Source: Thermococcus barophilus MP (lineage in GTDB: Archaea; Methanobacteriota_B; Thermococci; Thermococcales; Thermococcaceae). From it: a stretch of 64,000 nt of DNA. The position numbers and the translations under genes are program-made. The notes below the pieces were generated by a model. It did no database searches, had not been told where the DNA came from, and saw only the letters and a program-made list of their open reading frames with translations. The DNA lies in NCBI RefSeq assembly GCF_000151105.2, contig NC_014804.1:1786567-1850566 (forward strand). Direction: 5' to 3'. This document shows, one piece after another, positions 61,354-63,658 of the stretch. How positions within the stretch are numbered: the stretch's first letter is position 1; every line of letters begins with the position of its first letter.

Positions 61354-61883
61354 ATGGAGGGATTTACAATCTGGCTCACCGGTCCAAGCGGTGCTGGGAA
61401 GACAGTTTTAGCACATGCTTTAAAGAAGAAGCTAAAAGAAATGGGGTACAAGGTTGAAATCCTTGATGGAGATGTCATAAGGAAAACACTCTATCCAAAC
61501 TTGGGCTTTTCCAAGGAAGCGAGGGAAATGCACAACAGGATAGTGATCTACATGGCAAAGCTCTTATCAAGGAATGGTGTCATAGCTATAGTTTCTCTGA
61601 TTTCGCCGTATAGGGCTGTTAGGGAGTACGCAAGAAAGGAGATAGGTAGATTTATTGAGGTTTATGTATATGCGCCGTTGGAGGTCAGGATTCAGAGGGA
61701 TCCAAAGGGATTATACAAGAAAGCCATGCGCGGTGAAATAAAGGGGTTAACTGGCTACGATGGAGTTTATGACGGCCAGTGAATTGTAATACGACTCACT
61801 ATAGGGCGAATTGAATTTAGCGGCCGCGAATTCGCCCTTAGGCAGTGCTGAGGAAGGCTAGGGAGCTCGGTTACTTGAAATAA
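61354..61883 (+). pseudogene. cysC: APS kinase gene disrupted by cloning-vector sequence
   Basis: APS kinase phosphorylates APS to PAPS. The N-terminal 139 codons (61354-61770) are normal: Walker A GPSGAGKT, ILDGDVIRKTL, LGFSKEAREMHN, SLISPYRAVREYAR and KGLTGYDGVY. After that, 69 bases of vector follow and give a false stop after DGQ. Native sequence resumes at about 61840 with AVLRKARELGYLK-stop (61842-61883), the proper CysC C-terminus. About 20-25 codons are missing. The start is ATG 61354 after GGTGA. The chromosomal gene is probably intact. Confidence 0.93.
61771..61839 (+). other. Cloning-vector contamination (TOPO-type polylinker with T7 promoter)
   Basis: The stretch begins GACGGCCAGTGAATTG (the M13 forward primer region), then the complete phage T7 promoter TAATACGACTCACTATAGGG (61787-61806), a NotI site GCGGCCGC (61820-61827), an EcoRI site GAATTC (61828-61833) and GCCCTT at the TA-cloning junction. 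This is standard TOPO vector sequence and has no place in an archaeal genome. It reads as an untrimmed clone end from gap closure. Confidence 0.98.
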
Positions 61884-61976
61884 TGTATAGGAGTATACAG
61901 AAATCGGGTGTGTTAGCAATGTTGTATAATAGTATACAAAATATTTAAATCTGATTAATTAGGTATAGTACTATAC
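61884..61976 (+). promoter_or_regulatory. Three TGTATA-N4-TATACA operators of the HEPN/MNT locus
   Basis: TGTATAGGAGTATACA (61884-61899), TTGTATAATAGTATACAA (61922-61939) and GTATAGTACTATAC (61963-61976) share one consensus, TGTATA-N4-TATACA. The second directly precedes the TATA element ATATTTAAATC (about 61941-61951) and the third lies between TATA and the start codon, so the promoter is boxed in by repressor sites. Their spacing is about 38-40 bases. Confidence 0.8.
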
Positions 61977-61986
61977 AGGTGATGTT

Positions 61987-62330
61987 ATGTACCGCAGATT
62001 TGATCTTAATGAACTAAAGGAAATAATTGAAGAAGACTTAAAAGCCGGAGAAGAAGAATACCACAAAGAACGATACAACATAAGCTCAATTGCATTCTTA
62101 AGGCAATAGTGGGATATGTGACTATATAATTTATAAAGAACTCGGCATGCTGCTCAAACCATAATAAACGGTTTGAAATTCTAAGAAATTATTATCCTGA
62201 GCTTTATGAGATTGTTGACACTGACTTTGAAATTTACAGAGCTGCTTATATTTTCAAAATCCATAAAGAAGATGTCGAGAAGGTGAGAAAAGATGCTTGG
62301 CACCTCTATCAAAAAATTCAACGAAATTAA
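61987..62330 (+). pseudogene. HEPN-domain toxin gene with two frameshifts
   Basis: The gene starts MYRRFDLNELKEIIEEDLKA after GGTGATG and runs to ...SSIAFLRQ-stop at 62109. The HEPN sequence continues in other frames: GICDYIIYKELGMLLKP, then after another shift HNKRFEILRNYYPELYEIVD and on to KDAWHLYQKIQRN-stop at 62330. One shift is near 62100-62115 and the next near 62155-62165. The expected catalytic R-x4-6-H region falls in the broken part. The locus is likely non-toxic now unless the shifts are sequencing errors. Confidence 0.8.
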
Positions 62331-62907
62331 GAGAATTGCAAAAGAAATTGCAAACATTTACCCTCACATATTTGATGTGGTTCTTTATGGCTCTACAGTT
62401 AGAGGAAAAGAGAATCCTAGAGATTTAGACATCATTATCCTGTACAGGGATATCAAGAAACAGGATAGAGAATACTATAAAATCCCATTTGAATTCAGAA
62501 AAAAGCTTATTGAGCTTGGATACTCCAGAGAGGAGCTTGATGTAAAGGGTATTGCCATATGGGAACTTTTTGACCCCAACTTTTTTGCATCGTTGGGCAT
62601 TTTAGCTGAGGGGTACTCCCTACTTCATGAAAAATTCCTTCATGAGTTACTTAATGGGGAAGCTTATGCAATGTTTCTTTATAAGTTGCCAAAAGATTGG
62701 ACGCACAATGAGCTGAATAAGTTCCTGCATGCTTTAAAGGGAAGAGATGGGAAGTCAGGAGTTCTTGGGGAGTTGGGGGGCTTATATTTGTCGAGGGGAG
62801 TAGTTTTAATGCCTATTTGGAATACTGAAAGGTTTAAAAGGTTCTTAGAGCGCTGGAACGTCAAGTATGAGTACTCCCTAATAATAAAGACTACAACAAT
62901 GGTATAA
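62293..62907 (+). CDS. MNT-type nucleotidyltransferase (antitoxin partner of HEPN)
   Basis: A 204-residue protein with the minimal nucleotidyltransferase signature LYGSTVRGKENPRDLDIIIL (GSxxRG...DxD), followed by a helical C-terminal region. In HEPN/MNT toxin-antitoxin modules the MNT protein adenylylates the HEPN toxin to neutralise it. It overlaps the end of the HEPN gene by 38 bases in another frame. The start ATG 62293 follows AAGGTGAG. It is intact while its partner is broken. Confidence 0.85.
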   Translation: MLGTSIKKFNEIKRIAKEIANIYPHIFDVVLYGSTVRGKENPRDLDIIILYRDIKKQDREYYKIPFEFRKKLIELGYSREELDVKGIAIWELFDPNFFASLGILAEGYSLLHEKFLHELLNGEAYAMFLYKLPKDWTHNELNKFLHALKGRDGKSGVLGELGGLYLSRGVVLMPIWNTERFKRFLERWNVKYEYSLIIKTTTMV

Positions 62908-62917
62908 GGTGAGTTTT

Positions 62918-63658
62918 ATGTTCTCCTTTATTTTTCTCGGCTTTCTCGTTGGCTTTTTAGTTGGGCTGACTGGCATTGGTGGGGGAGCTTTGATGACCCC
63001 CTCGCTTATTTTCTTGGGAATTGAACCTTTAATGGCTGTTGGCACCGATTTACTGTATGCAACTGTTACGAGGATTTTTGGTGTGTTCTTCCATCATAGG
63101 AAGGGGAGTATTAGGTTTGATCTGGCTTTGAGGCTCTTTGCTGGTAGCTTGCCTGCAATTCTGCTTGGCTCTGTTCTGCTTAGGGTCATTGACAAGAGCA
63201 CGCTTAATAATTACCTGACTTTGTTGCTTGGCGTGATTCTTGTCGTCAGCTCATTCTTCAGCTTAGTTAAGGGAGAATTCCACGTTCCAATAAGACCGAG
63301 GAGGGAATATCTGTATCTTTTGGGATTCATTGTTGGTTTAACCGTTCAGTTCACTTCGGTTGGCGCTGGAGTCATAGTGAGCTTTGCATTGATGAATTTA
63401 GCCAAGCTGAGTCCGAGGGAAGTTGTTGGTGTCACGATATTTTATGGTTTGCCCCTGTCGTTTCTCAGTGCTTTGAACTATGCTTTTTTGGGCAGTACGA
63501 ATTATCATTTGGCTTTGCTCCTGATTGCTGGAACCTTACCGGGTGTGTATCTTGGAACCCATGTGAACAGAAAGGTGGATAGAGATAAGCTGAAGAGGGT
63601 TATTAACGTGATAATTTTGGTTATTGGCCTCTTGACACTCTTTCAGAGGGTGATTTGA
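62918..63658 (+). CDS. TauE/SafE-family membrane permease
   Basis: A 246-residue integral membrane protein with about eight helices. It begins MFSFIFLGFLVGFLVGLTGI and carries the TauE/SafE features GLTGIGGGALMTPSLIFLGI and the repeat-half GLTVQFTSVGAGVIVSF. Members move sulfite, sulfoacetate or other organic anions. Being near the sulfate-activation genes suggests sulfur-anion transport, though the HEPN/MNT locus stands between. The start is ATG 62918 after GGTGAG. Confidence 0.88.
   Translation: MFSFIFLGFLVGFLVGLTGIGGGALMTPSLIFLGIEPLMAVGTDLLYATVTRIFGVFFHHRKGSIRFDLALRLFAGSLPAILLGSVLLRVIDKSTLNNYLTLLLGVILVVSSFFSLVKGEFHVPIRPRREYLYLLGFIVGLTVQFTSVGAGVIVSFALMNLAKLSPREVVGVTIFYGLPLSFLSALNYAFLGSTNYHLALLLIAGTLPGVYLGTHVNRKVDRDKLKRVINVIILVIGLLTLFQRVI

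Follow-up and report, generated by a model that had tools for sequence, protein, structure and literature searches.

We find that the APS kinase gene (cysC) in the published chromosome of Thermococcus barophilus MP is interrupted by a piece of a laboratory cloning vector. Positions 61771-61839 of the window, by which we mean the whole 64,000-nucleotide stretch analysed here, are 69 bases of a TOPO-type cloning vector of the pCR4 family, from its T7 side. We regard these bases as almost certainly a sequence artefact, left in the published chromosome by a finishing error and of no biological meaning. The features of the locus are collected in Table 1.

Results

The scrap begins with the end of an M13-forward site, which is followed by a T7 promoter, a NotI site, an EcoRI site and a CCCTT topoisomerase junction, so that 61771-61839 reads GACGGCCAGTGAATTG, T7 promoter, GGCGAATTGAATTTA, NotI, EcoRI and GCCCTT. 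The initial annotation had placed a complete T7 promoter, NotI and EcoRI sites and a TA-cloning junction inside the APS kinase gene. The promoter and both restriction sites are all present, with the sole NotI site of the window at 61820 and the EcoRI site at 61828, and the CCCTT at 61835-61839 is a TOPO junction as claimed. Its assignment to the TA type did not stand, since a blunt junction looks the same. The TA and blunt TOPO versions of the pCR4-type vector have the same T7-side arm, and the two kinds of junction cannot be told apart from the sequence of the scrap.

The identity of the vector was put together from overlapping pieces, a 43-base match and published primers, rather than from one full-length vector record. 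Unrelated database records, from plasmids, from E. coli and labelled as phage, contain lab-vector-like DNA that agrees with 42-43 bases of 61771-61813 at 100% identity. This piece of backbone runs from the M13-forward site through the T7 promoter to GGGCGAATTG, and the match begins at 61771 even though the query started six bases upstream; the GA at 61771-61772 is common to vector and native sequence and can be assigned to neither. For the distal part of the scrap, a literature search found the pCR4-specific AATTTAGCGGCCGCGAATTCGCCCTT in primers of two studies (PMC7157774 and PMC10128949): the primer in the first carries the distal vector arm and served for amplification from the template pCR4-24xMS2SL-stable, and a construct primer in the second contains ATTTAGCGGCCGCGAATTCGCCCTT, its partner primer carrying TGCAGGTTTAAACGAATTCGCCCTT. 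The whole 69-mer had no exact match in genome_contigs, and its distal 32 bases had none in viral_contigs. We take the partner-primer sequence to be the opposite pCR4 arm. Together, the 43-base match and the pCR4-arm primers bear out the initial annotation in calling this segment a cloning vector. In the 2,064,237-base genome there is one copy each of the T7 promoter, GAATTCGCCCTT junction and GACGGCCAGTGAATTG stretch, all at the scrap, and the 20-base T7 promoter is missing from all 93 further genomes of the family that were searched.

Three short (1.5-3 kb), unannotated phage records (OR844963, OR845556 and OR848931) also contain the 43 lab-vector-like bases, T7 promoter included, and may represent cloning vector instead of phage DNA. 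A 43-base vector-like stretch of the same sequence lies under a lacZ annotation in the E. coli CT30 chromosome (NZ_CP032078.1, 3666087-3666129), where it is possibly another vector remnant or the mark of an engineered strain.

Table 1. Features at and downstream of the interrupted cysC gene (coordinates are those of the window).
Feature	Position	Strand	Basis
cysC (APS kinase), native 5' part, 139 codons	61354..61770	+	96-99% protein identity to five same-genus genomes; PF01583, TIGR00455
Cloning-vector scrap, pCR4-type TOPO vector, T7 side	61771..61839	+	matches by pieces; unique in genome
T7 promoter, exact	61787..61804	+	0 expected in shuffles of the window
NotI site, EcoRI site and CCCTT topoisomerase junction	61820..61839	+	read in the sequence
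cysC native 3' end: AG, then AVLRKARELGYLK and stop	61840..61881	+	alignment with seven relatives
Small ORF (interrupted) and nucleotidyltransferase gene, between cysC and TauE	61987..62904	+	order same in L018 and L019
Nucleotidyltransferase	62293-62904	+	PF01909
TauE/SafE-type transporter gene	62909..63658	+	PF01925; blastn with L006

Knowing what the scrap is, we can read the gene around it. In the record, the cysC ORF starts with the ATG at 61354 and after 142 codons meets a TGA (61780-61782) that belongs to the vector; its product still matches TIGR00455 (205.6 bits; cut-off 138.7) and PF01583. Its C-terminal part is incomplete, the ORF ending at the vector stop. The missing end is found to the right of the scrap, where AVLRKARELGYLK and the stop codon restart at 61842, in frame immediately after the CCCTT junction, and match the CysC C-terminus of the relatives. 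Native coding sequence thus stands on both sides in the right order, as had been proposed. All seven relatives that have cysC carry uninterrupted native sequence at this site, namely five genomes of the same genus, in which the gene has 174-175 codons, in agreement with the roughly 175 predicted for an intact copy, and two genomes of another genus. The 142-residue CysC is consequently a false truncation, as the initial annotation held, and by comparison with the relatives the correct protein should be 174 residues long.

The same alignments indicate how much native sequence is gone. Between the two cysC anchors, each of the seven relatives has 64 bases and the window has 69, the AG at 61840-61841, which lies within these 69, being native. 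About 62 native bases have therefore been lost; counting the ambiguous GA as vector raises this to 64. Both values fall within the 60-75 estimated beforehand. Judged by the two lengths (69 versus 64 bases between anchors), the scrap is more aptly seen as replacing native sequence, nearly length for length, than as inserted into it. The overwritten segment is a normal component of APS kinase, because the intact CysC of L006 matches the archaeal APS kinase structure 8a8h over residues 2-173, that is, over nearly its full length.

A vector artefact could in principle have come with a chimeric clone, its right flank taken from elsewhere in the genome and wrongly joined to cysC, and the gene order downstream gives some reason to consider this. 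In relatives of the same genus a TauE-type transporter gene follows cysC directly, whereas the window has an extra stretch of ~1 kb (61882-62907) between them, for which we found no match in other genomes of the genus. Against such a join, however, the right side starts with the 3' end of cysC itself, and the extra stretch occurs only once in the genome and is directly followed by TauE. Moreover, the same order of cysC, small ORF, nucleotidyltransferase and TauE is seen in L018 and L019, two genomes from a different genus of the family, with ~72% DNA identity and an intact cysC. We dropped the chimeric flank on account of this shared order and consider it very improbable; because L018 and L019 have the same downstream order, the two flanks of the scrap are natural neighbours.

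The extra stretch itself looks like a two-gene toxin-antitoxin-type module that occurs in more than one genus, made up of the small ORF and the nucleotidyltransferase gene. The small ORF has no Pfam match and resembles a HEPN-like partner by position only. Its frame is broken: at 61987-62290, four bases are missing at three spots within ~55 bases when compared with L018 and L019, in which the frame is open there. These gaps, near 62099, 62115 and 62153, lie 260-315 bases into the supposed cloned fragment, and they may reflect true degeneration of the ORF or further low-quality sequence produced in the same finishing step.

We also considered whether the culture that was sequenced could have carried these vector bases in its chromosome, acquired by laboratory recombination, so that cysC would truly be broken. 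The bases do stand in a finished chromosome record, and, if true, this would amount to a laboratory-derived vector fragment in a hyperthermophilic archaeon, inactivating its APS kinase. Yet the scrap comprises only 69 bases of one arm and ends exactly at the TOPO cloning junction. Neither a replicon nor a marker nor the second arm lies nearby, and the other vector marks searched for are absent, with no M13-reverse site and no TOPO junction beyond the one in the scrap anywhere in the genome. Real integration also sits poorly with the nearly length-for-length loss of native bases. To our knowledge, genetic tools for T. barophilus became available only after the 2011 genome, which we count as a further point against it. 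On balance, integration in the culture appears as improbable as the chimeric clone. That natural sequence resembles the vector by chance or through a common phage origin can practically be dismissed: T7 promoters do occur naturally in T7-like phages, but none is expected in the window by chance, the scrap reproduces the man-made order of sites and is identical over 43 bases to vector-like DNA in unrelated records, and the match to the pCR4-arm primers refutes it.

Discussion

From the identity of the vector and the intact gene in the relatives we infer strongly that the published sequence contains an assembly error, in support of the initial annotation. Starting from these two observations, together with the uniqueness of the scrap and the near length-for-length replacement, we reconstruct the cloning and finishing step, the direction of the read and the mechanism of the merge as follows. 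A fragment beginning AGGCAGTGCTG in cysC would have been cloned into a pCR4-type TOPO vector, and the clone would have been read from the T7 side and the read left untrimmed. The untrimmed read may then have been overlaid on the left contig end, where the vector GACGGCCAGTGAAT happens to resemble the native GAAGAGCCGGAGAAT; in the alignments with relatives the two are alike enough for such an overlay. The consensus would have retained the vector over ~62 native bases, which put a stop codon into cysC. The near-equal length of the vector and the lost native stretch fits a merged overlap that was won by the vector bases. Literature searches for earlier reports of the error, or for pCR4 being used in this genome, turned up nothing relevant.

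The biological interest of a finishing error is small, and its practical consequence is a published record in need of correction. To users of the genome, APS kinase would falsely appear truncated, and sulfate activation in T. barophilus, a piezophilic model, could be misread. Vector scrap in a reference assembly can also draw stray reads in metagenome work.

The case is akin to the vector contamination known from public assemblies, in that untrimmed cloning-vector sequence was likewise left in a deposited record. The scrap described here, however, lies inside a finished chromosome and replaces native bases, instead of sitting at a contig end or in a stray contig. Compared with the pCR4-type TOPO vector, the record has the same order as the T7-side arm (M13-forward end, T7 promoter, NotI, EcoRI and CCCTT), but of the full vector it holds only the 69 bases of this one arm. 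The gene concerned is the same as that of the archaeal APS kinase of Methanothermococcus thermolithotrophicus (PDB 8a8h) and is intact in the seven relatives, whereas in the record vector takes the place of 21-22 codons near the C-terminus.
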